DNA of 64,000 nucleotides from Paludibacteraceae bacterium (GTDB lineage: Bacteria > Bacteroidota > Bacteroidia > Bacteroidales > Paludibacteraceae): contig JAFTOD010000005.1 in NCBI GenBank assembly GCA_017451525.1, positions 248,001 to 312,000 of the forward strand, read 5' to 3'. Positions 11,048 to 51,575 of the stretch are shown here, piece by piece. Within the stretch, counting starts at the first letter, position 1. Each line of letters starts with the position of its first letter. The notes under the pieces are model-generated. The model did no database searches. It was not told where the DNA came from and saw nothing but the letters and a program-made list of their open reading frames with translations. The translations under genes and the position numbers were made by a program.

Positions 11048-11085
11048 AATCTTGAATAAAATTCTAAATACTCTTAATCGAGTGC

Positions 11086-11093
11086 AAAGGTAC
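11086..11093 (-). promoter_or_regulatory. Promoter -7 element of the DUF5606-parE operon
   Basis: The minus strand reads gTAccTTTGcac, with an upstream TTTGCACAT near 11108-11118 as the -33 region. Confidence 0.85.
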
Positions 11094-11145
11094 TACTTTT
11101 TTTGTAAATGTGCAAATTTGTAGCGAAATTTCTTTTTTCTTTGAC

Positions 11146-32302: not shown

Positions 32303-32411
32303 TCGCCTTCATGGCGATTTTTTGTTTATTGCTGAAGCTACACCATATACGAACAACAAAAATTTGCTCAGATACAATACTTGGTATAGTTTTTGTACAA
32401 CTATTTTTAAT

Positions 32412-33170
32412 ATGTTAATTAAACGACGCGCTATATTTATCCTTTTTGTGCTGTTCCCACTTGTGGTCGCAGCGCAGCAACCTCGTATGGCAATCGATTC
32501 TATGAATACTGCCATTCGTGACTTTCGGGATTCAGTACGGCAGGACATTCGTGATTATCGAGATTCCATTCGTGATGTAAGACGTCACGCATACGATTCC
32601 ATCCCCCATGAAATTCGTATTGGATGGGGTGATCAAATGTTTGAAACACTTATGTGGCGTAATCAGGGGTATATTACGGTAATGCCACCAACCTACCAAG
32701 TCACTTATAACGAGCATTTTCGTTATACGCAACACTGGTTTGTGGAGTATCTATATAATGTCAATTATTGGTATAGTTTCGGAGCGCAAATTGACTATAG
32801 TGGTGTAATTTGGGATGAGGTTACTCGTAATGGAGAGGGATTAGAAATACAACGTAAAAAGAATCATAGCTTCCACAATATCAGTATTTTGCCCACAGTC
32901 CGTTTCTCTTATTTCCATCGAGAATATACTTCTCTTTACTCTTCGATAGGAGTGGGAATAAATATCAATACGGGTACTGAACTCGACTATAAATCTCGTC
33001 AAACTGCGGTTGCGCCTGCCGTGAATATTGCTTTGTTGGGCTTGCGTGTAGGAAAGGGTAGATTTTATGGTTTAATAGAGATAGGCGGACTATTCTCGCT
33101 TGTTACTTCGGATGAAGTATATATGCTTGGTTCCAGAATATTTACCACTTCATTTGGTGTACGATTATGA
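32412..33170 (+). CDS. Probable outer-membrane beta-barrel protein
   Basis: A 252-residue protein with a signal peptide (MLIKRRAIFILFVLFPLVVA-AQ), a charged helical stretch with repeated RDxRDS/RDYRDSIRD words (about residues 30-58), then amphipathic beta strands (YWYSFGAQIDYSGVIWDE, SLYSSIGVGININTGTE, FYGLIEIGGLFS) ending ...FTTSFGVRL, a C-terminal aromatic/Leu strand as in outer-membrane barrels. No named family is recognised. The longer frame from 32241 overlaps maf and is not used. Its stop overlaps the next start (ATGA), so the following lipase-like gene is coupled. Confidence 0.75.
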   Translation: MLIKRRAIFILFVLFPLVVAAQQPRMAIDSMNTAIRDFRDSVRQDIRDYRDSIRDVRRHAYDSIPHEIRIGWGDQMFETLMWRNQGYITVMPPTYQVTYNEHFRYTQHWFVEYLYNVNYWYSFGAQIDYSGVIWDEVTRNGEGLEIQRKKNHSFHNISILPTVRFSYFHREYTSLYSSIGVGININTGTELDYKSRQTAVAPAVNIALLGLRVGKGRFYGLIEIGGLFSLVTSDEVYMLGSRIFTTSFGVRL

Positions 33171-34492
33171 CGATACAATCCAAAATACTATACCAACTTA
33201 CCGCATGTTTCTTGCTCCTGACATCTTGCCAAGTGGGGGAGTGGCATTATGTAGATTTCACTGATATACCTTCTAAGCCAGGTATGTTCCGTGTGGTATC
33301 TCAACGCAATACCGATATGCAACAGCTCACCAGCAATCCTAATCAATTGGCTCTTTGGGGATTCAACGTGTTGGACGACACTACTCGAAATTCACAACCC
33401 AATATCCACAATCCGCAGCGTGCCTCTTCTGTTACGATGAATCATGTCGTACAGAATCTGTTGGATTTTAGCAATATGACTACCGCAATCGAACTGAGCG
33501 GCATATATCCTTCTATTGATATTGATGGTAATCCAATTACGCTTTCTGGCAAAGTTATTCTTCCTGCCAAAGGACCGATCAAGCGATATATCCTCGTGTC
33601 ACACTACACGATTGCTAGCAATGCGGAAGCGCCAAGCAACATCTTCTCTCTTGAAGGTTTATTGGTTAAGTTAGGCTATGCTCTCATCATTCCTGATTAT
33701 CTAGGTTATGGTGTTACTGCCGATCATATTCATCCTTATTTGGTAATGGACCTCACTGCTCGCAATGTCTTGGATATGTATCTCGCAGTAGTTCCGTTTC
33801 TTGAAGCGGCAGGTTATGCTCCTGAATATGATGATATCTACCTCATGGGGTATTCACAAGGCGGTGCTACCACCATGGCAGTGCAGCATCTGATTGAGCA
33901 TCACGGCGACTATGACATCAAGATTCGTCGCGTCTTTGCAGGTGGAGGACCATACGATGTGAAAGCCACTTATGACCGTTTTGTCGAAACCAATGTGACG
34001 ATGTATCCATGTGCAGTACCCATTATGATGCAGGGAATGATTGTTGGCAATAAATTGGATGTGGATATGCAACGAATGATGTTGCCATATCTCTACGAAA
34101 ATCTGGATGAATGGGTCAATAGCAAACGTTATACCACTTCTCAAATCAATGCCTTCATTGGTTCTAACACCACGAGCGATCTTTTAAGTCCGATAGGCAT
34201 GAATCGAACGAGTAAAGAGGTCTCTGAACTCTATAAAGCTATGACGAATAATTCCATTCTTACCTATTCGTGGATACCCAAGGCCCCAGTGTTTATCATG
34301 CACTCCATAGATGATGATGTGGTGCCTTATGAGAATGCAACTCGTGCCAAGAGCAAGTGGCAGGGTGCTAATATTCAGTATAGTTTAGGTCATTTTGGAG
34401 GCCATGTAGCTGCTTGTATCCGTTTTATTTACACAGTCCAAACTTTACTTATCAACGAAGAACAAGAAGAAAATGGCAATTATGATTTTTAA
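33167..34492 (+). CDS. Secreted alpha/beta-hydrolase lipoprotein, lipase-like
   Basis: A 441-residue lipoprotein (lipobox LLLTSC, about residue 21). Alpha/beta-hydrolase features: PDYLGYGVTADH, the nucleophile elbow GYSQGGATTM (Ser about residue 229), the acid in HSIDDDVVPYENA and a C-terminal GHFGGHVAA with the probable catalytic His. It resembles secreted triacylglycerol lipase/esterase (LIP-type) proteins; the substrate is unknown. It is coupled to the barrel gene upstream (4-bp overlap) and to the lipoprotein gene downstream (20-bp overlap), implying a three-protein envelope unit. Confidence 0.82.
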   Translation: MTIQSKILYQLTACFLLLTSCQVGEWHYVDFTDIPSKPGMFRVVSQRNTDMQQLTSNPNQLALWGFNVLDDTTRNSQPNIHNPQRASSVTMNHVVQNLLDFSNMTTAIELSGIYPSIDIDGNPITLSGKVILPAKGPIKRYILVSHYTIASNAEAPSNIFSLEGLLVKLGYALIIPDYLGYGVTADHIHPYLVMDLTARNVLDMYLAVVPFLEAAGYAPEYDDIYLMGYSQGGATTMAVQHLIEHHGDYDIKIRRVFAGGGPYDVKATYDRFVETNVTMYPCAVPIMMQGMIVGNKLDVDMQRMMLPYLYENLDEWVNSKRYTTSQINAFIGSNTTSDLLSPIGMNRTSKEVSELYKAMTNNSILTYSWIPKAPVFIMHSIDDDVVPYENATRAKSKWQGANIQYSLGHFGGHVAACIRFIYTVQTLLINEEQEENGNYDF

Positions 34493-35447
34493 AACTATAA
34501 ATAGGGAGTCAGTCCACAAATCTTATACCTCATATTTGTGGCAGAGCAAGGTGCTGGTTCTTTGCTCTTTGTTCTTGCTTTGCTCGTTGGCTGCTTGTAA
34601 TCCAGAAGAGATACCTGCTTCCACCAACAATGTGGAGATTTCTATTGACGTGCAGAAAGTGTCTGCGGGATATGCGCATGTCACTTTTTCTACCAACAAA
34701 CGGGCATTCTATCTCATTGGTATTCAGGCTGCTCAAGCGGATGTAGATCCTCAAAAGGTCGCAAAGCATTTCATGCTCATGGCTTTAGACCGTGCCTATG
34801 TGGACTATCTTTATTGGCGCAACCAGCAGTTGCAGCAGCTTACGCCCTTTATCGCCGATTTTGCATCTCACTCGTTGCAGTATGGTACTGTGGACCATTT
34901 CTTCACTTTCTTAGATACCGATCAGGATTATTGGGTATATGCTTTTGTGGTGGATCACACTTCCAACAAACCTGCTGGACGATTGTTTTATCAGACCATC
35001 CATACCAATGATTCAAGCCTTATTCCGATTGATTTTCACTATCGCGTAGAGGGAGCATGGGACTATGTTTATCCTATGGACAGCACGGGCGAGATTCATT
35101 CGCATATCCCATGGGTGGGCGAGACGATAGATAGTCTAACCCTTCGCCAACAAGGGTGGAATTCTCCGGGTGAATATTTCTTCCATCGTTTCACTCAACA
35201 ATACGAGAATCCCGACTCTCCTGTAAACTATGGTATTGCAGCCAAGGAGAACGATGGTGAGGGAGAGCACACTTCAAATATCAAGTTTGAAATAGGAAAG
35301 ACGTATTATACAGGTATGGCTACTTTAGATGCACCATTGGTATATCCTTTGCCAGAACATGTCTATGATATCTATCGCTTTACATGGCAGGGAGATACAA
35401 CCAATATCTATCTCACTCCTGCGGATACACTCAGTGGTTTATGGTAA
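34473..35447 (+). CDS. Lipoprotein of unknown function, partner of the lipase-like protein
   Basis: A 324-residue protein with a lipobox SLAAC (about residue 42; a start at MIFKTINRES is also possible) and a first beta-rich domain (NNVEISIDVQKVSAGYAHVTFSTN) resembling fibronectin type III-like modules of Bacteroidota lipoproteins. The C-terminal half contains GAWDYVYPMDSTGEIHSHIP and TYYTGMATLDAPLVYP. No catalytic motif is recognised. Overlapping translation with the lipase-like gene suggests a joint surface function. Confidence 0.72.
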   Translation: MAIMIFKTINRESVHKSYTSYLWQSKVLVLCSLFLLCSLAACNPEEIPASTNNVEISIDVQKVSAGYAHVTFSTNKRAFYLIGIQAAQADVDPQKVAKHFMLMALDRAYVDYLYWRNQQLQQLTPFIADFASHSLQYGTVDHFFTFLDTDQDYWVYAFVVDHTSNKPAGRLFYQTIHTNDSSLIPIDFHYRVEGAWDYVYPMDSTGEIHSHIPWVGETIDSLTLRQQGWNSPGEYFFHRFTQQYENPDSPVNYGIAAKENDGEGEHTSNIKFEIGKTYYTGMATLDAPLVYPLPEHVYDIYRFTWQGDTTNIYLTPADTLSGLW

Positions 35448-35449
35448 AC

Positions 35450-37735
35450 CTACATCGGATCCACATCGGGTAGGATGATCGTCCCTTTGCAAGCCGATTG
35501 TTGTTGCACGAAGCCGATATGTTCACGCACCAACTCTTTGGCACGCACGATATTCGCATTCGCCTCAATCGTCAAACGAATCTGCCGCACATACATATTC
35601 TGTGTGCGAGCCACAGTTGGCAATATAACTCCCGAAACGCGACGTCCGAACGCCTGCTGCAATCGCTGTTGCAACATGCTGCTTGCTGCGGTCAGTCGCT
35701 GCATATCGCGGTGCTTCAGTGTCAGCATAATCATGCGATGATCGGGTGGGAAACCAAACGCCTTTCTTTCGGCTATCTGCTCCGAGTAAAGTCCCTGATA
35801 ATCATGCGCTATCAAGTGTTGGTACAAACTATTCTTCGGGTTGAATGTCTGAATCATCACCTCACCCTGACTGCCCGTTCTACCTGCACGACCACTCACC
35901 TGTTCCAGCATCTGAAACGCATGCTCGTAGCTCCTAAAGTCAGGTTGATTCAACAGCGAATCTGCTTGCAGCACTGCCACCAGACTCACATCATTAAAGT
36001 GCAAACCCTTTGTAACCATCTGAGTACCAATCAGTATATCGACTTCGTGCTTAGCAAACCGATCAATAATCCTTTGGTAGGCATCTTTCTTTCGGGTTGA
36101 ATCCAAGTCCATTCGCAGCACGCGTGCCTCGGGGAATAGCCCTTGTATCTCCTCCTCCAGTCGTTCCGTACCAAATCCCTGCGTGCGGTACTCTGTCTTG
36201 CATTTTGGGCAATGACTTGGGGCACTGATGCTGTGTCCACAGCAGTGACAAACCAAGGTGCGATTGGCTTTGTGATAGGTCATACTCACATCGCAGTTCG
36301 GACACTTAGGCACTTCGCCACAACTTGGGCACTGCAAGAATGGCGCATACCCTCTGCGGTTCTGAAACAATATAACTTGCTTACCCTTAGCCAGTTCCTC
36401 GCGTATCCTATCTACCAATGGATCAGCAAAATGCCCATACATCTCTTTGCGATGATACTGACGTTGCAAGTCTATCATCGTGATTGTTGGTAGTTGCAAT
36501 CCTTGAAAACGCTCCGTCATCTCCACCAAACCATATTTCCCGCTCAAAGCGTTGTGATAACTCTCAATGGATGGAGTAGCCGTACCCAGCAGCACTTTCG
36601 CACCATGCCACTGCGCCATCATAATGGCTGCACTTCGGGCATGATAGCGTGGTGCAGGGTCCTGTTGCTTATAACTGGGCTCATGCTCCTCATCCACAAC
36701 AATCAATCCCAACTCACTGAATGGCAAGAAGATAGCTGACCGAGCTCCCAATATCACCCTGCCTTTACCCATTATCCCATAGGGCTCTGCCCGTCCAATA
36801 TCCAGCGTGCCGTGGCACGCATGATATATCTCCACCCTCTCCGCATTGCTAAACTTCGAATGATACACCACCAGTCTATCCCCAAACACGGCTTGCAAAC
36901 GGTCGGTCAATTGGGTAGTCAATGCTATCTCTGGCACCAGATACAGTACCTGTTTGCCTTGTTGCAATACTTCCTCAATCAGGTGGATATATACCTCTGT
37001 TTTGCCACTGGAGGTTACGCCATGTAGCAATGTCACATTCTTCTCTTGCCAACTCTTTCGTATCTCCTCTATTGCTCTACTTTGCTGACTATCAAGGGTA
37101 TGTGGCTTTTGTGTCTCGCCTTTGTATTGGCGCAAACGCGAGATAGGTCGCTCTTCTTCAAGGAATATCCCCTTGTCAATCAATGTCCGCAGAATAGCAC
37201 CGCTCACTCCTGCTTGCTCCAGCAGCAAACGCCTCTCCACTTGATAATTCTGCGCCAAACGGAGGAAATCTCGCACCAATTGTTCTTGTTTCTTAGCGCG
37301 TTTCAGTTCCCTGAACAACTGCTCTTGTGCTTCTTGTGCCAGATAGGCAGGTGCCAATTGTATGTATTGTGTAGTGGCTGCGCTGTAGTTGTCATCAATG
37401 ATTTCAGAGGGTAGGGCAGCTGCCATCACTTCGCCCAGAGTGCACATGTAATAGCTTGACAACCATTCCCATAACTTTATTTGCTCTGCCGTAACGATTG
37501 GCGTCTCATCCACTATTTGCAGCACATCGCGCACTTTCACATTGGCTGGCAATTCCCCTTCGTGCTTGCGATAGATGATACCAATGACACTCTTCTTCCC
37601 CAGCGGCACCAGTACGCGACACCCAATAGGCGCAGCCGTCCCATAGCTCGCTTCGCGAGCGTCCACTACCCGATAGGTGTACACATCCGCAATTGCCAAC
37701 GGCAAAATAATATCGTAAAGTGATTGGTTAGTCAT
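35450..37735 (-). CDS. priA: Primosomal helicase PriA
   Basis: A 761-residue replication restart helicase. It has the N-terminal 3'-DNA-binding domain, Walker A LLHGVTSSGKTEVYIHL (about residue 235), the DEEH box VVDEEHEPSYKQ, the zinc-binding Cys cluster CPSCGEVPKCPNCDVSM...CHCCGH...CPKC (about 480-520) and helicase motifs V-VI (LIGTQMVTKGLHF, EQVSGRAGR). The start MTNQSLYD at 37735 is chosen over 37777 because the promoter -7 element is at 37744-37751; the mRNA would then be nearly leaderless. It converges with the lipoprotein gene (2-bp gap, no terminator seen). Confidence 0.94.
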   Translation of the reverse strand: MTNQSLYDIILPLAIADVYTYRVVDAREASYGTAAPIGCRVLVPLGKKSVIGIIYRKHEGELPANVKVRDVLQIVDETPIVTAEQIKLWEWLSSYYMCTLGEVMAAALPSEIIDDNYSAATTQYIQLAPAYLAQEAQEQLFRELKRAKKQEQLVRDFLRLAQNYQVERRLLLEQAGVSGAILRTLIDKGIFLEEERPISRLRQYKGETQKPHTLDSQQSRAIEEIRKSWQEKNVTLLHGVTSSGKTEVYIHLIEEVLQQGKQVLYLVPEIALTTQLTDRLQAVFGDRLVVYHSKFSNAERVEIYHACHGTLDIGRAEPYGIMGKGRVILGARSAIFLPFSELGLIVVDEEHEPSYKQQDPAPRYHARSAAIMMAQWHGAKVLLGTATPSIESYHNALSGKYGLVEMTERFQGLQLPTITMIDLQRQYHRKEMYGHFADPLVDRIREELAKGKQVILFQNRRGYAPFLQCPSCGEVPKCPNCDVSMTYHKANRTLVCHCCGHSISAPSHCPKCKTEYRTQGFGTERLEEEIQGLFPEARVLRMDLDSTRKKDAYQRIIDRFAKHEVDILIGTQMVTKGLHFNDVSLVAVLQADSLLNQPDFRSYEHAFQMLEQVSGRAGRTGSQGEVMIQTFNPKNSLYQHLIAHDYQGLYSEQIAERKAFGFPPDHRMIMLTLKHRDMQRLTAASSMLQQRLQQAFGRRVSGVILPTVARTQNMYVRQIRLTIEANANIVRAKELVREHIGFVQQQSACKGTIILPDVDPM

Positions 37736-37743
37736 TTCAGCTG

Positions 37744-37751
37744 CAAAGGTA
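37744..37751 (-). promoter_or_regulatory. Promoter -7 element of priA
   Basis: The minus strand reads TAccTTTGcagc, with TTGTGCATATACA upstream. Only 8 bases separate it from the start codon chosen. Confidence 0.85.
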
Positions 37752-37819
37752 CAAAAAAAAATGTATATGCACAACAAAAACTCGTTTTTGTTGCCATAGG
37801 CTACATTTTTTTACTGTAG

Positions 37820-37860
37820 CTTCGAGGGTAGGGTGTCCTCGAAGTACGACAAAAAATACA
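37820..37860 (-). repeat. Dispersed promoter-like hairpin element, copy d
   Basis: A perfect 8-bp stem cttcgagg/cctcgaag (37820-37844) is followed by a gtacgacaaaaaatac tract shared with 20993-21013. Read on the minus strand it begins TTGCATATGTGTATTTTTTG and continues gtacttcgagg, like a promoter whose TTTG has become TTCG. Confidence 0.7.
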
Positions 37861-37977
37861 CATATGCAAGTTTTCGCCTTTCAAAAGACGATTTTAAGTA
37901 TGTTTTTCATCTTTAGAGAGAAAATTCTTATTATTTATAATTCCTCCCTCATTCTTGCACAGAATTTGAAAAGAACT

Positions 37978-38087
37978 CTATCTGTCCGCTATCTGTCCGC
38001 TGTCAACTACGGTAGATACACGGTAGATATACGATAGATATACGTTAGATACACGATAGATAAGTATAGGAGTACCATAGGAATACT
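37978..38087. repeat. 11-bp-period tandem array (10 units, 110 bp)
   Basis: Units read ctatctgtccg (twice), a decayed unit, ggtagatacac, ggtagatatac, gatagatatac, gttagatacac, gatagataagt, then ataggagtacc and ataggaatact, all in one 11-bp register. It ends about 110 bp upstream of the promoter at 38196. Confidence 0.93.
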
Positions 38088-38195
38088 GCCCCATCTCCAA
38101 TAGGCGGAACACCGTCCCATAGCCCTCATGGGTGTCCATTATCCAAAAAATAGCGATTTTTTCGCCATTTTCTTGCACACTTGCAAATTTTGTTG

Positions 38196-38203
38196 TAACT
38201 TTG
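38196..38203 (+). promoter_or_regulatory. Promoter -7 element of the ubiquitin-domain gene
   Basis: The sequence ttgtTAacTTTGcag has TTGCACACTTGCAAATTTTG upstream. It gives a leader of about 265 nt before the start codon. Confidence 0.88.
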
Positions 38204-38268
38204 CAGTCGATTAGGTAAAGTGTTACTTATCACACTATGTAAACATATATAGCGTTATAAGCCCAAAC

Positions 38269-38404
38269 TTGATTTTCTGAAACCTCGACACTTTTAGAAA
38301 TCATTAACAATTCAAGTAAGGTTTATGCACGCTCGCGTTTCCAGCGTGAGTTTTCAGTGCGTAGATTTGAATTGTTAAGGTAGTCGAGAACCTCAGAAAA
38401 TCAA
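38269..38404 (+). ncRNA. Long structured RNA in the leader of the ubiquitin-domain gene
   Basis: Nested complementary segments form one long hairpin: ttgattttctga (38269-38280) with 38393-38404, 12 of 12 pairs; ctcgac (38284-38289) with 38383-38388; ttaacaattcaa (38304-38315) with 38367-38378, 12 of 12 pairs; and a terminal cacgct (38328-38333) with 38343-38348, which competes with atgcac (38325-38330) pairing to 38357-38362. A further small stem (aagcg/cgctt, about 38409-38430) follows. It may be a cis-acting leader, a riboswitch-like element or a processed small RNA. I cannot assign it to a known RNA family. Confidence 0.72.
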
Positions 38405-38475
38405 ATTGAAGCGAACGAAGGCACACGCTTTTACTTTTAGAAACGAAATATAATTAATCATAAAAATCTTTGAGT

Positions 38476-41400
38476 ATGAAAAAACTATTACTCCTTATGT
38501 CGGCAGTCATGATCACGCTCTCCTTGTCGGCGATGCAAATCTTCGTTAAGATGCCTGATGGTAGGCACGTTACCTTAGAAGTAGAACCTACAGATCGAAT
38601 TGAAGACGTAAAGGCTCAGATTCTTGATAAAGAGGGAACCTTGCCTGTGTATTATCAACTCATTTATGCAGGTAAATGTTTGGAAGATGGCAATACCTTG
38701 CAGGATTATTCTGTCCAAAAAGATGCCACCCTATATCTTTATAATATAGGTCTTTTCGCCGTCAGTGCGGACAAGCAAGTCGTTTTCTCTCCAGGCAACT
38801 TGCAATATCATCCAGCAAATGACGAGTGGCGTTTTGCTGAGAATCAAACCGATTATATTGGCGATGCAAATAGCAATATTGCAGCCGATTATGATGGTTG
38901 GATAGATTTATTTGGTTGGAGTACCAGTGCCACTAATTTTGGTGTAAGTACTTCTATTGATTATAATGATTATTCAGGTAGTTTCGTAGATTGGGGTACG
39001 AATCAGATTGGTGCTGATGCTCCTAATACATGGCGCACTTTGTCTAAGGATGAGTGGATGTATATTTTCTACGATCGTACAAATGCACAGTCTTTGTTTG
39101 CATTAGGTAGTGTAAATGGTGTGAATGGTACTATTATCTTACCAGATAATTGGACTACTCCTGACGGTGTGAGTTTTGTAGCAAGTACTACTCAAGGTTT
39201 ATCATGGAATGGCTCATATTACTCCAATAGCAATGGCAATAATTTCTCTCATAACACTTATACTGCTGAGCAGTGGCAAACAATGGAGCAGGCAGGTGCG
39301 GTGTTCCTTCCCGCAAGTGGCTACCGCTGGGGTACGGTTGTGGACTATGTTGGCAGCATCGGCTACTATTGGTGGAGTACAGAGGGCAATAAGTACTACG
39401 CGTACGACGTGCGCTTCAGTTCCGACTACCTCGATCCGCAGTACTACTACTATCGCCACTACGCTCAAGCAGTCCGCCTTGCCAAGACATTCGTCGTGCC
39501 AACTTTCCAAGTCTTAGCGACTCCTTCAGACCTTGCATGTGGCACTGTGGAAGGTGGTGGCGTATTCAAAAAGGGGGAACAAACCACACTCAAAGCCACT
39601 GCTAATGAGGGTTACAAGTTTACTCAATGGAGCGATGGCAATACCGACAATCCACGTACCGTAACTGTCACAAGCGATGTAACTTATACGGCAGAATTTA
39701 CTAAATTAGAACAATTAAATGGACTATTCTCCGCAGGAGATGATACACAGATTTATTTCTCAAGAGGAAACTTACGCTATACTCGTTCAACCGATACATG
39801 GTCTTTTGCCACATATCAATACGACTTCGTGGGGGCTGCTAATACGAATGGCGCAGAATTGGCAGATGTGGTCGATTTGTTTGGTTGGAGTACAGATGGC
39901 AATCCTAACACCAAATGGGGCATTAGCACATCTACCAATACGGATGATTATAAAGGTGATTTCGTGGATTGGGGTACCAATGTAATAGGTGAATCGCCTG
40001 CTAATACATGGCGCACACCTACGGGCGATGAATGGATATATATATTTACGCGACGTCCTAATGCAGGGGCATTGTATGGTGTAGCGCAAGTTGCAGGGGT
40101 TAATGGATTGATTCTTTTACCAGATAATTGGACAGGTGTTAGTGGAATTACCTTCAAAAGTGGTTATCCAACTAACAATGGCAATTTCGCAGATTACCAG
40201 TCCTTTACGCTTGACCAGTGGAATATAATGGAAGCCAACGGAGCCGTTTTCCTACCACAAGCAGGTATGCGTTCAGGAACGCAAGTTACTGATTATACAC
40301 ATTATTGGGCTGCTACCAAAAAATCAGATACGAATGCCGCTTTATTGCACTTTACAGGTAGTAGAATCGTACCTGACGGAGAGAATAACATTGCATTTGG
40401 ATTTGTTGTTCGTTTGGTGCAAAGCCAAAAGAAATATACTATTACAACAGTAGCTGAGAATGGTGTTGTTACTGGAGGAGGTGTGTATGTAGAGGGTGAT
40501 TATGTAACATTGACAGCTACTGCTAATGAGGGCTACAAGTTTACTCAATGGAGCGATGGCAATACCGAAAACCCACGTACCGTAACTGCTACTGCTGATG
40601 TAACATATACCGCAGAGTTTACTGCCATTCCAACACAACATGTCTTGGTAGATGGTATATATTACAATTTCGATATAGAGAATAAAACTGCTACTGTTAC
40701 GAATAATGGCTCTGATGAGCCTTGGAATAATCCATCCTATACGGGAGATGTTGTTATTCCTGCTTCCGTAGAGTATGAGGGATATACTTTCAATGTTGTT
40801 GCAATCGGAGAGAGCGCGTTTAATATGTGTTGGGAGGTAACATCTGTTATCATTCCTGAAGGTGTGGTACGTATAGAAACAGAAGCTTTTGCAGAGTGTG
40901 AATTTAATAGCATTACATTGCCAACTTCCATCCAATCAATAGGTAGTTATGCGTTTAATTATGGCATGATGCCAATAAATAACATCACATTGCTTTCGCC
41001 TACTCCTCCTACTATAGGTGATAGGGCATTTGGTTACACCTATTCTGAGTACGATGAAATGACCTGTACAATTCATATCCCATGTGGTACATTGGAAACA
41101 TATCTTGCAGGAGAGGGGTGGGCACCATTGAGCACACAAGACGGCTTATATATTAAAGAACCAGATCCTGAAAATACATTAACCGTTGCTACCACCAACG
41201 AACAGCAAGGTGCAGCGCGTATCGTACAAAGCAATGTGTGTGATGACGATAATGCTATCATCGAAGCAGTGGCCAACTATGGCTATCATTTTGTACAATG
41301 GAATGATGGCAATACCGATAACCCTCGCAATATCGTAGTGACCGAGGACATTACTTACACCGCAGAGTTCGCTGCTAATACATATACAGTATCTACCAAA

Positions 41401-41979
41401 GTCAACGATGATGCGATGGGTTCTGTGTCAGGTGCTGGTCCATATCTCTACACAGCAGAAGCTACACTTACCGCTACAGCCAATCCATTCTATCGCTTTG
41501 TTCAATGGTCAGATGGCATTGCCGACAACCCTCGCGTAGTTATGGTAGAGAAGGATAGCCTGTTCACTGCAGAGTTCGAGATAGAAACCTTCAATGTGGT
41601 TGCTGCTTCTGGCGAACCAGACAGAGGACGTGTGAAAGTCATTCTTGTGGCAGAACCTATCGAAGGATTTGAGTTCTCGCATTGGAGTGATGATAACACC
41701 GACAACCCACGTGCTTTCTATCCTGATGGCAATCTTGAAGTATATGCATATTTCAAAATAGCATCTAGCACTCCAACCAATGTGGAGAATACTCAAATCA
41801 CTTCTGCCAAGGTCTATGGTGCAAATGGCACATTGCACGTAGAAGGTGCAGACACCAATTACTACGTTTTGGATGCTTCTGGTAAATTGATTTACACGGG
41901 TCGTCAAGAAACGTTATCATTACCTCAGGGAATGTATCTTGTAACCATAGCAGGAGAAATCCAAAAGGTAGTATTATAA
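38476..41979 (+). CDS. Secreted multidomain surface protein with N-terminal ubiquitin domain and T9SS-like tail
   Basis: 1167 residues from ATG 38476 (the TTG at 38470 is rejected because the signal peptide starts MKKLLLL). The signal peptide covers residues 1-19 and ends LSLSA. Residues 20-92 are a ubiquitin domain: MQIFVK, TLEVEP, DKEG, LIYAGK, LEDG and QKDATL align without gaps to ubiquitin; Lys6, 27, 33, 48 and 63 are kept, the C-terminal Gly-Gly is not. Then come a Bacteroidales surface module (about 93-338, [10 protein letters not shown]...DLFGWSTS), a [10 protein letters not shown]-type bacterial repeat (347-413), a second surface module (414-651), another repeat (653-721), a BspA-type LRR_5 region (722-895: [26 protein letters not shown]), three more repeats (900-1095) and a C-terminal sorting domain (1099-1167, [12 protein letters not shown]...[10 protein letters not shown]). 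Probably exported by T9SS to the surface. Role unknown. Confidence 0.9.
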
Positions 41980-42012
41980 TACAAATACAGACCCAACTAT
42001 AAAACCAACTAA

Positions 42013-42057
42013 CAATCCGCATAACCGAACGATTAAGTCGGTTATGCGGATTGTTTG
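42013..42057 (+). terminator. Intrinsic terminator after the ubiquitin-domain gene
   Basis: A perfect 15-bp stem (arms 42013-42027 and 42039-42053, caatccgcataaccg and its complement) with an 11-base loop is followed by TTTgctt. Confidence 0.85.
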
Positions 42058-42126
42058 CTTATGTTGAATATCTTGGAAAAACTATGGCACCCTAATTTGC
42101 TGCACGCCTATTCCCCAAAAGATATG

Positions 42127-43305
42127 CTAATACACAAAACCAAACATCCACAAAGGAATAGAGTTTTGGTAAACATATTCAGTGTCATCTTTAATGACAT
42201 ATCCCTGATTGATAGGCAGTGTGGCAAGCTGCTTTTTGGTTTTATTCTTACCTCCTATCTCAAAAGTCAATCCGTCCACTTCAAAATCGGAAACAGGTGA
42301 GGAGGAAATAAAATGTCCCACGCGAAGCCATGCAAAGAAGATTGTTTCACGAATAGTGCCAATATCTGGGGTGGTATCTGACAAGACGTATGCCTCATTG
42401 GGATTATGCAAATATACCTTTTCTATCTTTTCGAGCAATTTAATGCCTGATGCCTTTTCTCGTAACACACCTATCAATCCCGCCTTCTCTAGAAAGAGCA
42501 TGTATCTAGGTAGTGTATTTCGAGAGATTTCCAAATCACGCTCTAATTTAGCATAATTAGGTTTAAAAGGTACACTTTGTGCCAATACATAGAGCAATTT
42601 CTTCAGTTTCTGTACCGATGCCACTTCCATTTCGGCAAACTTAGGTATATCATCTTCTACCACCTGCTTGATGATACCATTCAAGCGCATTGCGTAGTTG
42701 TCTTCTTGAAAGAATGGAAAATATCCTTCACGCAAATATTGTGTGAATAATTGCAATGGACGCGCCTTGTCGTATGGAAAGTCCACCGAACCAGCCAGAA
42801 TATCCTCTAATGAATAACGTGGCAAATTCCAACCTTGAGATATATTCAGATATTCACGGAAACTAAGCCCAGGCAATGTATATTCTACCTTTCTTCGGCT
42901 CAAATCAGCCCCTCCTTTTTCTAAATCCAAAATAGAAGAACCACTATACACCACTTTCAAGTCTGGCATCATATCATAGATATTCTTTATCTCCGTTGAC
43001 CAGCCGTGGTATTTGTGTATCTCATCAATATAGAGGTGTTTACCGCCCTGCAACATAAATTGCCGAGCTAAATCCACTAAGCGATGCGTAGTGAAATAAA
43101 AATCGTCAGCCATCACATATAGCGTCTGCGGTGTATTGTCATACAGGCGAATGTGCTGCAAAATCATTGTGGTTTTACCAGTACCTCGTGAACCTAATAT
43201 GGCAACTAAACGACTATTCCAATCTATCTCATCATGTTTGTCACGAACAAAGGCAATACTCACTCTGTTGATTAGTTCTCGGGATGTTGCAAATAAATTT
43301 TCCAT
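42127..43305 (-). CDS. AAA-type ATPase with DUF4143-like C-terminal domain
   Basis: 392 residues from MENLFATS. An AAA_14 ATP-binding domain has Walker A LGSRGTGKTTMIL (about residue 37) and Walker B/sensor KHLYIDEIHKYHGW...VVYSGSS. A DUF4143-type C-terminal part begins near residue 185 (EDDIPKFAEMEVASVQKLKKLL, DLEISRNTLPRYMLFLEKAGL). Many copies of such genes occur in Bacteroidota genomes as single genes. Function is unknown, though toxin-antitoxin-like or regulatory roles have been suggested. The start at 43305 is set by the promoter at 43329; the longer frame to 43371 lies upstream of it. Confidence 0.88.
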   Translation of the reverse strand: MENLFATSRELINRVSIAFVRDKHDEIDWNSRLVAILGSRGTGKTTMILQHIRLYDNTPQTLYVMADDFYFTTHRLVDLARQFMLQGGKHLYIDEIHKYHGWSTEIKNIYDMMPDLKVVYSGSSILDLEKGGADLSRRKVEYTLPGLSFREYLNISQGWNLPRYSLEDILAGSVDFPYDKARPLQLFTQYLREGYFPFFQEDNYAMRLNGIIKQVVEDDIPKFAEMEVASVQKLKKLLYVLAQSVPFKPNYAKLERDLEISRNTLPRYMLFLEKAGLIGVLREKASGIKLLEKIEKVYLHNPNEAYVLSDTTPDIGTIRETIFFAWLRVGHFISSSPVSDFEVDGLTFEIGGKNKTKKQLATLPINQGYVIKDDTEYVYQNSIPLWMFGFVY

Positions 43306-43328
43306 ATCTGTAGTAGTAAAAATCGCTG

Positions 43329-43336
43329 CAAAGGTA
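43329..43336 (-). promoter_or_regulatory. Promoter -7 element of the DUF4143-type ATPase gene
   Basis: The minus strand reads gTAccTTTGcagc. Confidence 0.85.
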
Positions 43337-43380
43337 CATAAAAAAATCAAATTGCACAATAGGTAATGCACTTTTTTGAT

Positions 43381-43408
43381 AAAAATGCATCATTAACCGT
43401 GCATTTTT
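43381..43408. terminator. Possible hairpin terminator
   Basis: Arms aaaaatgca (43381-43389) and tgcattttt (43400-43408) with T-rich flanks on both strands. No plus-strand gene ends here, so the role is uncertain. Confidence 0.4.
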
Positions 43409-43471
43409 TTCTTTTAAGTGACTCATTTCGCGGGGGGCTACAGCCGTAGCGAATTTTTGTAACAAATTTGC

Positions 43472-43506
43472 CAATAAAAATAAGCGAGGGATAATCCTCG
43501 CTTATT
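43472..43506 (-). terminator. Intrinsic terminator of the nfeD-tdk operon
   Basis: An 11-bp stem aataagcgagg/cctcgcttatt with a 6-base loop, followed on the minus strand by a T-rich TTTTTATTGG. It lies just after the tdk stop. Confidence 0.9.
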
Positions 43507-43537
43507 CTATGCTTATAGGTTGCTTATCCTATGCTAA

Positions 43538-44134
43538 TTAGTTATTGGCTTTTTCGGCTTCGAGGGCTTTCTCGTAGCAAGCACGGCAGAGAGGTTCGTA
43601 GCTCTCGGTCTCGCCGAGCAACACGCGCTTGTCGCTGCTGACAGTACGATGGCTCACATATGCCAAGTCGCCGCAATGCACGCAGATGGCGTGGGTCTTA
43701 TATACATCATCGGCAATAGCCATCAACGCTGGCATTGGTCCGAAAGGCACTCCCTTGAAGTCCATATCCAAGCCCGCACATATCACACGAATACCGCGGC
43801 GAGCTAGTTCGTTGGCCACTTCCACAATACCCATATCAAAGAATTGTGCTTCGTCAATGCCGACTACATCTACGTCGTTCGCCATCAGCAGGATATTCTG
43901 GCTGCTATCCACAGGTGTGGACTGAATAGCATTGCGGTCGTGACTGACTACTTCGGCTTCGCTATAGCGCACGTCTATTGCGGGCTTAAAGATTTCTACT
44001 TTCAGTTTGGCAAACTGCGCGCGTTTCATACGACGGATAAGTTCTTCGGTCTTTCCCGAGAACATACTTCCGCAAACTACTTCAATACTGCCTCGACGCA
44101 GACGAGGACCTTTGGTATCTAATTCACTAAACAT
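43538..44134 (-). CDS. tdk: Thymidine kinase
   Basis: 198 residues from [10 protein letters not shown] type II thymidine kinase with P-loop [23 protein letters not shown] (catalytic Glu region), [15 protein letters not shown] and structural zinc Cys pairs CVHCGDL and CRACYEK. It phosphorylates thymidine in salvage. The start at 44134 is favoured over 44176, which lies inside recJ. Last gene of the operon from nfeD. Confidence 0.95.
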
Positions 44135-44144
44135 GGTTATTATT

Positions 44145-45902
44145 TTAATGGCTATCCGATTCAAGTGATGGCACAATATCCTGTACCATCATTTGAATAC
44201 TCGTATAATGATTAAACGTATTTTCATTCAGTTCATAGCAGATATCCACGGCGTTGCCGTTTTGGATATACTCTGCCATATCGGCGCGCCCGAAGGCGAT
44301 ACCCGTGATTGCATTCATGCGGTCGGTTACATCCAATCGCAAATGCTCACGCTCCTTGCCCACAGCACGCGTATCGCGGTGGTTAATCAGTCGGCGCGAC
44401 ACGAACAACGGACGCGGATTACCTGGACCAAAGGGCTCTAAGTGACGCAATACATTGTAGAACGATTTGGTAATATCGCCCAGTTGCAATTCTGCCTCAA
44501 TATCCAATGTCGGTTGCAACTGATTAGGTTGTATATGCGCTGCCACATACGCCTCAAAACGCTCGCGGAACTCAGGTAAATCATCAATATGCATGCTCAG
44601 TCCAGCCGCATATTTATGTCCGCCAAAGTTAGTGAGCAAGTCATGGCACGAGTCAATAGCAGCATAGATATCAAACCCACCTACCGAACGCGCTGAGCCC
44701 GAAATGATACCATCTTCGCCTGCCGTCAGTACGATAGTCGGACGGTAATACGTTTCCGTCAAACGCGAAGCTACAATGCCCACCACACCTTTATGCCAAT
44801 GGGGGGCATACACTACTGTCGAACGGCGGTTGGCATAGGTAGGGTCATCTTGCAACTGCTGCAACGCCTCTTTCGTTGTCTCCGTATCGCAGTCGCGACG
44901 GTCCTCGTTGTGATGATTCACCTCTTCGGCTTGCTCATGAGCAAAATCAGGGTCATTGGTCAGCAGCAATTCCACGGCAGCGCGACCCGACTTCATACGC
45001 CCACACGCATTGATGCGTGGACCAATCTTATATACTAACTCATTGATTGTTATCTTCTTTGCCTCAATACCTGCCACTTGCATGATTGCCGACAAACCCG
45101 TGAATGGTTGGGTATTGAGTTGCTTGATACCATAGTGCGCCAATATGCGGTTTTCCCCTGTGATAGGCACTATGTCCGAAGCAATTGACATTGCGAGTAG
45201 CTGTAATAGTGGTACGAGGTTGTCAAATGGCAAGCCGTATTGTTGGGTGTATGCTTGTGCGAGTTTGAAACCGACACCACAACCTGAGAGATCTTTGTAA
45301 GGGTATGGGCAATCGCTGCGCTTCATGTTCAGTACTGCCACTGCATCGGGCAACTCCTCGCCAGGCGTATGGTGATCGCAGACAATCACGTCAATGCCTT
45401 TGCTCTTAGCGTATGCCACTTTCTCCACCGCCTTGATACCGCAGTCCAGCGTGATAATCAATCCACACCCTTGCTCCGCAGCATAGTCTATTCCCTGCTG
45501 CGAAACACCGTAACCCTCTGTATATCTGTCAGGAATGTAGTAATCGATTTCAGCGCCTTTCGCCTCATAGCCTTCTCGCCTTATCGCCTCCAAAAATCGG
45601 TACATCAGCGCCACCGCAGTCGTGCCGTCCACATCGTAATCGCCGTAGATAAGTATTTTTTCGCCCTGCGTAATGGCTTTATGTAGTCGCTCTACGGCTT
45701 TGTCCATATCCTTCATGAGGAAAGGGTCATGCAGTTTGTCGAGTGACGGACGCACGAACGCACGTGCTTCATCAGCCGTTTGTATGCCACGTACCACCAA
45801 CATACGTGCCGCTGCAGAACTGATATTCAGTTCCTTCTCCAACTGCTGTTGCATTTCTTGCTCCACCGCAGTCAAACACCGTATGTTCCAGTTATAATTC
45901 AA
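44145..45902 (-). CDS. recJ: Single-stranded-DNA-specific exonuclease RecJ
   Basis: A 585-residue DHH-family 5'-3' exonuclease: [44 protein letters not shown] (DHH), [22 protein letters not shown] and DHHA1 motif [13 protein letters not shown]. It acts in mismatch repair and recombination. The length matches the family. Downstream tdk starts 10 bp after its stop. Confidence 0.95.
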
Positions 45903-45946
45903 AATTCTTATCGCACTTATACTTGAACGACTATTCGTTTGCGAAT

Positions 45947-45981
45947 ATTCTTAATTCATAACTCTTAATTCAAAATTATCA
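45947..45981. repeat. 7-bp-period repeat at the recJ/nitrilase junction
   Basis: Units attctta, attcata, actctta, attcaaa, attatca. It encodes the last residues of the nitrilase-family protein (NFELRVMN) and includes its stop codon. Confidence 0.65.
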
Positions 45982-46760
45982 ATGTCTTTCCAAAGCGGTA
46001 ACACCTCGCGGAAGTGGTGTAGCGCGTCAATATCAAAATCAGCAATCTTCGTGCTCTCCTCATTGTCAGCGAACGATACAATCGGCTGCAAACGTGTGTC
46101 ATATGCTACCGAATGTCCGTTATAATTGAGCCCCTTGTCGTCTGTACCCACCATGTTCACGGCAGCAATATAGCACTGGTTCTCCGTAGCACGAGCAGCC
46201 ACCAAGGCATCCCAATACTGCACACGCACCTCTGGCCAGTTAGCCACCACTAGAATCACATCATAATCGCTGCCCGACCGATTACGCGCCCAAGCAGGGA
46301 AACGCAAATCGTAGCAAACGAGCAACAGGAATTTCACACCCTTATACTCAAAGATATGCCTTTTCTGAGCAGGTTGGAAGAACAAATCTTCTCCGCCGTG
46401 GGCATACAAATGGCGTTTATCCTGAATTTCTATCTCCGCATGTGGCTTAATCATAAAACCGCGATTGCGGAGCTTCGTTCGGGTATCGGGAATCGGGCAT
46501 CGGGGATCGGGCAAACAAATAAACGAACTCACAATCGCTACACCACTCTTATCCGCTACTGCTTGCAGACGGCGGATAATCTCGCCGTCCATCGTTTCTG
46601 CCAATTCGGGATGGTCGGTGCAAAAACCAGTCGCAAACATCTCTGGTAATACCGCCACATCGGCTTTGCCAGCCAATGCAGCGATATGTTCTTCCGCCAT
46701 GCGCAGATTCGTTTCCTTATCTGCCCACGCGATGGAGTATTGTAGCAGTGCTACTCTCAT
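45951..46760 (-). CDS. Nitrilase-superfamily carbon-nitrogen hydrolase (omega-amidase-like)
   Basis: A 269-residue protein with the catalytic triad Glu in [10 protein letters not shown] (about residue 40), Lys in [13 protein letters not shown] (about 115) and Cys in [13 protein letters not shown] (about 150). It resembles the YafV/Nit2 branch that hydrolyses omega-amides such as alpha-ketoglutaramate; the substrate is inferred. A 7-bp repeat insertion gives [12 protein letters not shown] in a beta-hairpin loop. Its start overlaps the floA stop by 4 bp. Confidence 0.88.
46477..46511. repeat. In-frame 7-bp tandem repeat in the nitrilase gene
   Basis: Units gttcggg, tatcggg, aatcggg, catcggg, gatcggg: five heptamers with a constant tcggg. 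They encode a Pro/Asp/Arg-rich loop not expected in the family. Confidence 0.88.
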
Positions 46761-47746
46761 TTCTTTTTCGCAGGCTCGCTAGCAGGCTTACCGATAGCCT
46801 CGCGCATAGTAGTGTCCGCTTGGATATTCTGCATACGGTAGTAATCCATGATACCCAAATTACCATTGCGGAAAGCATCTGCCATCGCTTGTGGCACCAG
46901 TGCCTCTGCCTCAATCACTTTCGCACGTGCCTCTTGCGCCTTCGCCTTCATCTCTTGCTCATTAGCAATAGCCATAGCACGACGCTCCTCTGCCTTCGCT
47001 TGAGCGATGTTCTTGTCTGCTTGCGCCTGATCCATCTGCAATTGCGCACCGATGTTCTTACCTACATCAATGTCCGCAATATCAATACTCAAAATCTCGA
47101 ACGCTGTACCTGCATCCAACCCTTTGCTGAGCACGAGTTTGGAGATGCTATCTGGGTTCTCCAGCACGAGTTTGTGGCTCTCAGCCGAACCAATAGAAGA
47201 TACGATACCCTCGCCAACACGAGCCAAAACAGTGTCTTCGCCAGCACCACCGACCAATTGCTTGATGTTCGCACGCACGGTCACACGCGCTTTGGCAATC
47301 AACTGAATACCGTCTTTCGCCACGGCGGTCACAGGTGGAGTATCTATCACGCGAGGGTTAACCGACATCTGTACTGCCTCGAACACATCACGACCTGCCA
47401 AGTCAATAGCGGTCGCCATTTGGAAGGAGAGTTGCATATTTGCTTTGCTGGCACTCACCAGTGCATGCACCACGCGCTCAATATGTCCTCCCGCGAGGAA
47501 GTGCGCCTCCAGTCCGTCGCGCTTCACATCGGTCAAACCTGCCTTATGTGCTTCAATCAAACAATTCACAATACGTGTTGGTGGTACCTTACGGATACGC
47601 ATCAAGAAGAGTTGCACCAACGATACATGTACGCCACTTACTACTGCATTGATCCACAGCATAAAAGGTACATAGTAGAAGAAAATAATCACGAGGATGG
47701 CCATTATTGCCACCAGTACCCATTGTAAAATACCAAATGTCTCCAT
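46757..47746 (-). CDS. floA: Flotillin-like membrane scaffold FloA
   Basis: A 329-residue protein with an N-terminal membrane hairpin (about residues 8-45), an SPFH-like domain ([58 protein letters not shown]) and an Ala/Glu-rich coiled coil ([20 protein letters not shown]). It organises lipid microdomains. It follows nfeD, the usual partner of flotillin genes. Confidence 0.93.
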
Positions 47747-47753
47747 ATTGTTT

Positions 47754-47788
47754 TAGTTTAAAGATTATAGTTTAAAGTTTAAAGAAAA
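47754..47788. repeat. 7-bp tandem repeat between nfeD and floA
   Basis: Units tagttta, aagatta, tagttta, aagttta, aagaaaa fill most of the 45-bp spacer between the two genes. Confidence 0.75.
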
Positions 47789-47791
47789 GGG

Positions 47792-48121
47792 TTATTTTTG
47801 TAACTCTTCCATGTGCTTGCCTGCGGATGGCATATCCACACCACCTTCAATCTTAGTGTCGAGTGCCATCTTATCCATGGCTTTGCTCTTGACAAACACC
47901 CAAACGGCAATGCCGCAAAGCACTACGCATGCAGCCAATGTCACATGACCAGCCCACGCCCAGAGGGCTACTAACTTAACATATGCAATCACTACAGCAG
48001 CTATCAGACTGACTAAACCAAAGATACCTGCCACACCAAAACCAGGCAAGAGAAACATCTCTGCCAACAAGAGTCCCACACCAAAGAGGACAAGAATAAT
48101 CGTCAAAATCAAATACGTCAT
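47792..48121 (-). CDS. NfeD-family membrane protein (short form)
   Basis: 109 residues from MTYLILTI. It has three membrane helices (about residues 2-20 with LLLAEMFLLPGFGVAGIFG, 28-48 and 52-70) and a short soluble tail; the OB-fold domain of longer NfeD proteins appears reduced. NfeD proteins act with flotillins, and floA follows. The longer frame from 48178 lies upstream of the promoter at 48144. Confidence 0.82.
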   Translation of the reverse strand: MTYLILTIILVLFGVGLLLAEMFLLPGFGVAGIFGLVSLIAAVVIAYVKLVALWAWAGHVTLAACVVLCGIAVWVFVKSKAMDKMALDTKIEGGVDMPSAGKHMEELQK

Positions 48122-51227: not shown

Positions 51228-51575
51228 GTGACTAATTCGTATTCTCATACAGCCCAAATCATGGACACGCCGGGCATGATGCACCATGCAGGGTATGTGT
51301 TTAAGGATCCATGTGTGGGATGGAATTCATTTACTGCCTCTGGTACAGGCAGTTTCTCTGCTATTTCGGCTGAGGTAGGTGGTAGTGTTTGTACGCAGGA
51401 AAACCTGTTTGGTGGTCCTGTGAAAGTGAATGGAATGGTATATGCATCTCGTCCTGATAGACCACCTGTGGGGCAGGAGATGCCAATAGGAGGAATGCTG
51501 TTGCCGATGTTGGTGATGGTGTGTGCATATGTGTTGGTAAAAGTGGTTAAACGTAAGAAATCTCAAGCCTTATGA
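51228..51575 (+). CDS. Small protein with one C-terminal membrane segment, coupled to the giant protein
   Basis: 115 residues from a GTG start (an ATG at 51261, MDTPGMMHH, is also possible). No signal peptide is seen. The N-terminal 80 residues are Gly/Ser-rich with two Cys (FKDPCVGWNSFTASGTGSF, GGSVCTQENLFGG) and a Pro-rich piece SRPDRPPVGQ. A membrane helix follows (about 87-106, GGMLLPMLVMVCAYVLVKVV) and a basic end KRKKSQAL. It overlaps the start of the 2221-residue protein by 4 bp (ATGA), so the two are translationally coupled. No family is recognised; it may help export or anchor its large partner (inference). Confidence 0.65.
   Translation: MTNSYSHTAQIMDTPGMMHHAGYVFKDPCVGWNSFTASGTGSFSAISAEVGGSVCTQENLFGGPVKVNGMVYASRPDRPPVGQEMPIGGMLLPMLVMVCAYVLVKVVKRKKSQAL

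Follow-up and report, generated by a model that had tools for sequence, protein, structure and literature searches.

Ubiquitin is taught as a hallmark of eukaryotes that is lacking in bacteria. What, then, is it doing at the start of a surface-type protein of a Bacteroidota bacterium? The question is raised by an open reading frame (ORF; 38476-41979, forward strand) in a 64,000-nucleotide stretch of DNA, hereafter the window, from Paludibacteraceae bacterium (GenBank assembly GCA_017451525.1, contig JAFTOD010000005.1, positions 248,001 to 312,000). The ORF opens with ATG and specifies a protein of 1167 residues. Computation shows that a stretch resembling a signal peptide runs up to ubiquitin Met1, that the domain behind it has the ubiquitin fold, that the conjugation tail is gone, and that the ubiquitin codons are conserved while the modules downstream are swapped. 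The source of the ubiquitin (eukaryotic), its display at the N terminus and the gut setting lead us to infer that the protein may be a surface-displayed, non-covalent ubiquitin mimic that contacts eukaryotic cells, its trichomonad-type ubiquitin having been acquired by inter-kingdom transfer and spread over several phyla; we consider this plausible, if just short of probable.

A ubiquitin domain at the predicted mature N terminus

The two N-terminal features of the protein are:
38476-38532, + strand: predicted signal peptide, residues 1-19 (hydrophobic stretch; Leu and Ala at positions -3 and -1 before Met1)
38533-38760, + strand: ubiquitin domain, 76 codons (ubiquitin positions 1-69 at 38533-38739), placed by PF00240, identity to human ubiquitin and AlphaFold2/Foldseek

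Ubiquitin Met1 is codon 20 of the ORF (base 38533). The 76-residue stretch matches PF00240 at 67.6 bits (E 8.2e-19; gathering cut-off 25.4), and a PDB sequence search with the domain returned 352 distinct sequences at E <= 0.001. Alignment with human ubiquitin is gapless over positions 1-69, with 43 identities among the first 70 residues, the very number that a preliminary description of the locus had counted by hand. An AlphaFold2 model built on a 27-row alignment (predicted local distance difference test score 91.7, predicted template-modelling score 0.78) was superposed on 1UBQ by Foldseek with a root-mean-square deviation of 0.5 A (template-modelling score 0.89, 62% identity, 69 columns); the predicted structure has the ubiquitin beta-grasp fold. 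The preliminary description had placed a ubiquitin domain at the mature N terminus, directly behind the signal peptide. The family match, the PDB matches and the modelled fold confirm the domain, and its position right after the predicted cleavage site holds by the (-3,-1) signal-peptidase rule and by hydropathy. The three outcomes that it had named as fatal, namely no profile match, a different fold or a join to a contaminant, were not seen.

Ile44, K6, K27, K33, K48 and K63 are kept, and L8P and V70Y are present, as had been correctly listed. Further substitutions relative to human ubiquitin are K11R, K29Q, R42Q, Q49C, H68Y and R72I. Thus five of the seven chain-forming lysines are retained (K11R and K29Q being the losses), Cys49 is the sole cysteine of the domain, and within the Ile44 patch (L8, I44, H68, V70) I44 alone survives, while the Phe4 side is retained. 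Positions 72-76 read Ile72-Gly73-Leu74-Phe75-Ala76 (R72I, G75F, G76A), which bears out the claim that the Gly-Gly tail is lacking. Because Gly-Gly is absent and both R72 and R42 are replaced (R72I, R42Q), the window ubiquitin should, judging from its residues, be neither conjugated nor activated by E1. Eight further differences from human ubiquitin (H12, T20, R22, D25, N54, Q57, S60 and D64), all present in the window, serve below as a signature. Behind the domain follow 1072 residues (1148 mature minus 76), in agreement with the earlier estimate of about 1070 residues of surface-type modules.

The gene belongs to a bacterial genome

The domain is eukaryotic in type and the 1.84-Mb assembly is incomplete (84% complete), which leaves some room for eukaryotic contamination or a misassembled join in a metagenome-assembled genome. 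However, the gene lies on a 521-kb contig and forms a single open frame that includes a bacterial signal peptide. The locus is also collinear with that of a related genome (G085) over window 32380-48010, with long segments 91-97% identical and a replacement of modules within 39440-40516 as the sole break in collinearity. Near-identical ubiquitin domains are present in three genomes, and the same layout occurs in records titled as strains (for example L026, L043, L055 and L062). Because the locus is syntenic and strain records share its layout, contamination is rejected, and we give an artefact of either kind hardly any credence. The assembly holds no second PF00240 match at E <= 0.001.

Compared over 71 ubiquitin codons, the window and one close relative (L011) are separated by 9 synonymous (Sd) and 1 nonsynonymous (Nd) change, the window and another (L012) by 2 synonymous and 0 nonsynonymous changes; the signal peptide, 19 codons long, shows no codon difference among the three. 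This pattern suggests purifying selection on the ubiquitin domain while the downstream modules change. The nearest relatives of the organism are genomes assembled from ruminant caecum, and it probably lives in an animal gut.

A large set of bacterial ubiquitins with predicted signal peptides

A pattern scan of GTDB species genomes yielded 434 confirmed related loci; we kept the best 80 by resemblance to the window. As the scan pattern was ubiquitin residues 55-64, conservation there and the share of signature-bearing rows are inflated. The working set comprised 87 aligned domains, or rows (the window, L010-L014, L016, L018, L022 and L025-L102). Outside it stand L023 and L024 (the same matches as L011 and L012), L015, L017, L019-L021 and L132-L145; L056, with one upstream residue, stands outside the cleavage-site count, and L027, which is too short, outside the C-terminal work.

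The (-3,-1) rule holds directly before ubiquitin position 1 in 85 of 86 rows, L058 being the failure; the next best offset within 14 residues upstream gives 46 rows. Inside ubiquitin, offset +10 gives 66 rows because Leu8 and Gly10 are conserved. Met occupies position 1 in 85 of 87 rows. Upstream of it, 83 of 87 have a hydrophobic stretch and four (L036, L056, L058 and L078) do not; the last three of these have <=21 upstream residues each. In profile searches, 8 of 358 genomes at the level of the family carried a ubiquitin domain, as did 5 of 393 for the order and 6 of 395 for the phylum, the window genome included each time. In the phylum search (395 Bacteroidota genomes), all six further domains show the signal peptide-Met1 layout, although L133 is the same protein as L092.

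The window protein is thus a member of a large, apparently undescribed set. A picture of it as an isolated oddity near BfUbb, the secreted ubiquitin of Bacteroides fragilis, to which the preliminary description had pointed, is not borne out: the related loci cross phyla, and neither isolation nor close kinship with BfUbb, whose sequence was not compared, is supported given the 434-locus scan and the eight signature residues.

Several members are of interest in themselves. L013, L014 and L018, also from Bacteroidales, form another group of signal-peptide ubiquitins, which is more divergent and whose members start MQIYIDVPEQD. L019 and L020 are ubiquitin-like domains within long repetitive Bacteroidales proteins and are not N-terminal. 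On the Ruminococcus albus 7 plasmid pRUMAL01, WP_013483628.1 (L022, 387760-388500), annotated 'ubiquitin family protein', has a signal peptide, ubiquitin from Met1 and an extension, as in the window. It differs in carrying none of the eight signature residues, in a domain 58% identical to that of the window and in a mature protein of 220 residues; the plasmid is typed as mobilizable, and the gene lies a few genes from those of a phosphatidylinositol phospholipase C and a dockerin protein. As to carriage by mobile elements, neither of two queries matched any of 50,697 phage records at E 1e-5; they matched one and two plasmid records, and a search of viral_contigs gave 8 relatives.

A ubiquitin of probable trichomonad type

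At least five of the eight signature residues occur in 38 of the 87 rows, and all eight in 22. By NCBI titles these 38 signature rows fall into six phyla, with [Clostridium] spiroforme counted as Bacillota and the window and two relatives as Bacteroidota: 22 Bacillota, 8 Alphaproteobacteria, 5 Bacteroidota and one each of Mycoplasmatota, Actinomycetota and Nomuraibacteriota. Many are metagenome-assembled, some bear strain titles, and animal guts (water deer, goat, sheep) appear in several of the titles. In an 88-row tree of 71 columns the 38 rows lie on one side of a branch with support 99/94, a value that is partly circular, since the signature defined the group, and whose bootstrap had not settled.

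The best single-copy PDB match to the window domain is 5xy3 chain m, 'Ubiquitin, putative', from a ribosome of Trichomonas vaginalis, the organism being confirmed by PMC8860606 (in excerpt). It scores 98.9 bits against the window domain, compared with 81.4 bits for human ubiquitin and up to 83.3 for engineered ubiquitin variants; against L031, another bacterial domain, the values are 146.0 and 128.5 bits for 5xy3 chain m and human ubiquitin. A padded sequence of 132 residues that carries all eight signature residues predicts 99.1 bits (window) and 146.0 bits (L031), whereas reverting any one of them lowers the mean predicted scores to at most 97.7 and 144.7. We infer that T. vaginalis ubiquitin carries all eight residues, and on this score arithmetic a trichomonad ubiquitin is probably the source type of the window ubiquitin. 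We take chain m to be part of a cytosolic fusion of ubiquitin to a ribosomal protein, its conjugation tail being of the normal kind; unlike the window protein, it has no signal peptide.

Which faces of ubiquitin are kept

In eukaryotic ubiquitin, the tail and the Ile44 side form the constrained face, and the Ile44 patch is the surface used by most known ubiquitin receptors. Conserved fractions for ubiquitin positions grouped by known patch, some of which include signature or search-pattern positions, were as follows in the 38 signature rows and the 49 other rows, respectively:
Tail: 0.16 and 0.38
E1/E2 face: 0.38 and 0.61
Ile36 patch: 0.50 and 0.63
Ile44 patch: 0.65 and 0.74
TEK box: 0.90 and 0.85
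Seven lysines: 0.91 and 0.91
Asp58 patch: 0.92 and 0.75
Core: 0.94 and 0.94
Phe4 patch: 0.99 and 0.91

Outside pattern and signature positions, Q2 and F4 are each kept in all 38 signature rows, R42 in 8, V70 in 12 and R72 in 6. In these bacterial rows the tail and Ile44 side are therefore the freer face, whereas in eukaryotes they are the constrained one. Such a pattern is compatible with non-covalent action by a different face, or with a role that is structural and nothing more. The preliminary description had raised mimicry of host ubiquitin; for the window, mimicry through the Ile44 patch is unlikely because L8, H68 and V70 are all substituted, and the mimicry proposed here would go by the side that is retained.

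Gly-Gly is absent from 84 of the 87 rows, the window among them. The three that retain Gly75-Gly76 before the extension are L058 (no signal peptide seen), L080 and L084, and their residues give some footing to the idea that cleavage by a eukaryotic deubiquitinase at the end of ubiquitin releases what lies behind it. A precedent exists in the secreted ubiquitin-extension effector of the nematode Globodera rostochiensis, which likewise combines signal peptide, ubiquitin and extension; it is a eukaryotic gene whose 12-residue extension is cleaved off in the plant (PMC5705921, in excerpt). The window protein, by contrast, has no Gly-Gly cleavage site and an extension of 1072 residues. Release of this kind is nearly excluded for it by sequence, and we regard it as very improbable. 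As a separate observation, two secreted fusions, L080 (from Clostridia; its title names sheep omasum) and L084 (Ruminococcaceae), have a full RLRGG before the extension and could be cut by a deubiquitinase.

Export, anchoring and the parts behind ubiquitin

The remainder of the window protein comprises:
38749-39489, + strand: module copy 1, about 240 residues, tryptophan-rich, VRL end
39712-40425, + strand: module copy 2, about 240 residues, 45% identical to copy 1 by internal comparison
40435-40629, + strand: InlB B-repeat (PF18998, Pfam), the top-scoring of five divergent stretches of the protein
40801-41037, + strand: BspA-type leucine-rich repeats (PF13306; Pfam, E 3.5e-15)
41776-41973, + strand: C-terminal domain resembling DUF6383 (PF19910) and type IX secretion system (T9SS) tails (TIGR04183), under both cut-offs

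Pfam and NCBIfam searches gave no family name for the 240-residue module. Two B-repeat segments, 39586-39702 and 40507-40623, are 86% identical.

The window protein is probably exported by the T9SS, as had been suggested, with evidence on both sides. The organism has a PorU sortase (1034 bits) and 13 TIGR04183 matches, of which 11 are above the cut-off, but the tail of the protein itself scores 14.7 bits against TIGR04183, under the cut-off of 23. PF19910 gives 18 bits there (cut-off 23.7), and Por_Secre_tail is not among the Pfam matches of the protein.

Across the set, C-terminal families at E <= 0.01 in 78 stretches were Autotransporter (14), IPTL-CTERM (6), OMP_b-brl (4), SLH (3), Por_Secre_tail (3) and Gram_pos_anchor (1), in a tally where one row may match several families. 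A hydropathy rule detected a C-terminal membrane segment in 20 of 79 complete proteins. Compared at E 1e-5, 86 C-terminal parts formed 40 clusters, and 37 signature rows were spread over 13 of these: one ubiquitin type, many partners. Different phyla thus seem to place ubiquitin at a free N terminus through export and anchoring routes of their own.

So wide a range of partners also suits a passive module, in which ubiquitin would do no more than cap the N terminus of exported surface proteins, as a highly stable and protease-resistant domain, or help them fold. The retention of the core in the signature rows (0.94), beside 0.38 for the conjugation face and 0.16 for the tail, points the same way. 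Yet the surface residues K27, K33, K6 and Q2 are also retained, as is K63, albeit within the stretch (positions 55-64) biased by the search pattern, and a cap would presumably not need repeated recruitment of one eukaryotic domain in many phyla. We think a purely passive role unlikely.

Comparison with BfUbb

BfUbb is an established case of a bacterial ubiquitin that is secreted and cleaved at Met1, and the R. albus relative is already annotated. Like the window protein, BfUbb has a signal peptide cut at ubiquitin Met1, no Gly-Gly and a proposed eukaryotic origin; it is stand-alone, 63% identical to human ubiquitin and ends in cysteine, and its closest relatives are reported to be entomopoxvirus or giant-virus ubiquitins (PMC3352274 and PMC5705921, both in excerpt). 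The window ubiquitin differs in being fused to surface modules, in being of trichomonad type by score and in belonging to a multi-phylum set. The link drawn earlier between the two holds for the layout. As to lineage, the window ubiquitin is of trichomonad type by its eight residues, and BfUbb, compared here by its published description, probably represents an acquisition of its own, since its closest relatives are reported to be viral.

The likeness nevertheless brings in a role against other bacteria, in which the ubiquitin, held at the surface or shed by proteolysis, would bind and disable a competitor protein as BfUbb does. BfUbb, whose target is reportedly a periplasmic isomerase, would be the model. 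It is secreted, signal-peptide-cleaved from Met1 and without the terminal glycine, and is needed for toxin activity against some B. fragilis strains (PMC5705921, in excerpt). A single-contig 5.6-Mb Bacteroidota genome of the same class (G1058) carries two tandem stand-alone signal-peptide ubiquitins (L135 and L137; mature lengths 77 and 76 residues) in a BfUbb-like layout. Against such a weapon, the window ubiquitin is fused to 1072 residues whereas BfUbb is stand-alone; BfUbb is reportedly closest to viral ubiquitins and has a terminal cysteine that the window lacks (PMC3352274, in excerpt); and, going by record titles, both Gram-positive and Gram-negative bacteria belong to the set. Nothing among the neighbouring genes was recognisable as an immunity gene, though no search aimed at one was made. 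On balance, we judge antagonism of competitors to be improbable.

What appears to be new is the fusion to surface proteins, the multi-phylum spread and the trichomonad type; none of these was found in the open-licence PubMed Central literature, among the matches listed. B. fragilis has been called 'one of a few bacteria' with a eukaryotic-like ubiquitin (PMC5705921, in excerpt), and the excerpted PMC10457151 treats divergent Plasmodium ubiquitins, with no bearing on bacteria.

A proposed surface-displayed ubiquitin facing eukaryotic cells

We return to our proposal that the window protein is a non-covalent ubiquitin mimic at the cell surface. A trichomonad (parabasalid) ubiquitin would have entered bacteria by inter-kingdom transfer and then spread across phyla. 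Signal peptidase I would expose ubiquitin Met1, the T9SS or an equivalent would carry the window protein out, and the repeats would keep ubiquitin at a distance from the cell, where it would serve as an N-terminal ligand. Without Gly-Gly, it would undergo no E1 activation and would act non-covalently, offering its retained Phe4 side to a eukaryotic ubiquitin-binding partner outside the bacterium, on a gut protist or a host cell. The benefit could be adhesion, or interference with handling by protists or phagocytes. More broadly, eukaryotic ubiquitin may have been taken up by bacteria of many phyla that now expose it at the N-terminal tips of their surface proteins, and in guts a version captured from trichomonads may have passed among about six phyla, each with its own anchors, for dealing with protists or host cells through the non-conjugation face; this wider picture is tentative, and somewhat short of probable.

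Several points weigh against these proposals. The T. vaginalis residues were derived from score arithmetic and not from its sequence, and the protist ubiquitins compared are those in the PDB. The Ile44 patch is broken in the window (L8P, H68Y, V70Y), and loss of the Ile44 and E1/E2 faces is not general, as the 49 non-signature rows keep 0.74 and 0.61 of them; the Phe4 side may be conserved for the sake of structure and not as a binding face. On the side of display, many C-terminal stretches have no recognised anchor family, the tail of the window protein falls below the TIGR04183 cut-off, and a SprA_N search was silent in the window genome, as it likewise was in all controls. Across all profile searches, the signal peptide lies at Met1 in 13 of the 18 PF00240 domains besides that of the window; four depart from this layout (L007/L015 have no signal peptide, L009/L017 are divergent and lack Met1, and L019 and L020 are internal), and L021 gave no hit. 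Finally, the evidence for selection rests on ten changes.

If the proposal is right, with hundreds of species bearing an anchored ubiquitin and the gut version coming from trichomonads, the microbiota would have gut protists as a source of genes, and binding of ubiquitin outside the cell would be a testable route of contact between bacterium and protist or bacterium and host. Natural ubiquitins freed from conjugation would also reveal the constraints on the fold once that role is gone.

Neighbouring genes, a leader element and a retroelement

Five nearby genes were scanned: a topoisomerase, an ATPase (sub-threshold DUF4143), a lipase-type protein, a protein that combines an amidase domain with a carboxypeptidase-regulatory-like one, and an ORF of 2221 residues at window 51572-58237, which has no Pfam match at E 1e-4. 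Further neighbouring ORFs are, by eye, presumably PriA-like, thymidine-kinase-like and RecJ-like. A conjugation system at the locus finds no support, as the neighbours scanned or read by eye are no ubiquitin enzymes; no search of the genome for E1, E2 or E3 was made.

Just upstream of the ubiquitin gene lies a further feature:
38246-38432, + strand: structured leader element, about 187 nucleotides

Its fold has a z score of -7.03 for 38266-38412. Five other copies, 76-90% identical, occur in the same genome (G000; C4:464859, C4:177104, C2:70168, C4:504055 and C1:122781), and all six lie 36-98 nucleotides upstream of an ORF. The downstream ORFs include the window gene, which encodes the 1167-residue leucine-rich surface protein, and one for a protein of 1010 residues that is C10-peptidase-like by eye. 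Among the six copies, 14 of 51 consensus pairs show a compensatory double change, and an Rfam search gave no match up to E 1. We regard the element as a candidate for a new leader RNA, or else as a structured repeat in the DNA.

The variable ends of the 240-residue modules had raised the suspicion of diversification by a diversity-generating retroelement (DGR). The gene is unlike the template region beside the DGR reverse transcriptase of this genome, and diversification was set aside, templates elsewhere not having been sought. That DGR lies outside the window, at 8923-12530 of L113 (G000, C4:330001-350000). It consists of a reverse transcriptase (11396-12385), a small ORF (10923-11396) and a template (about 12390-12530). 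Its variable region, at about 10679-10806, forms the end of a 627-residue protein and shares a 60-bp match with the template in which 12 of 12 mismatches fall at template adenines.

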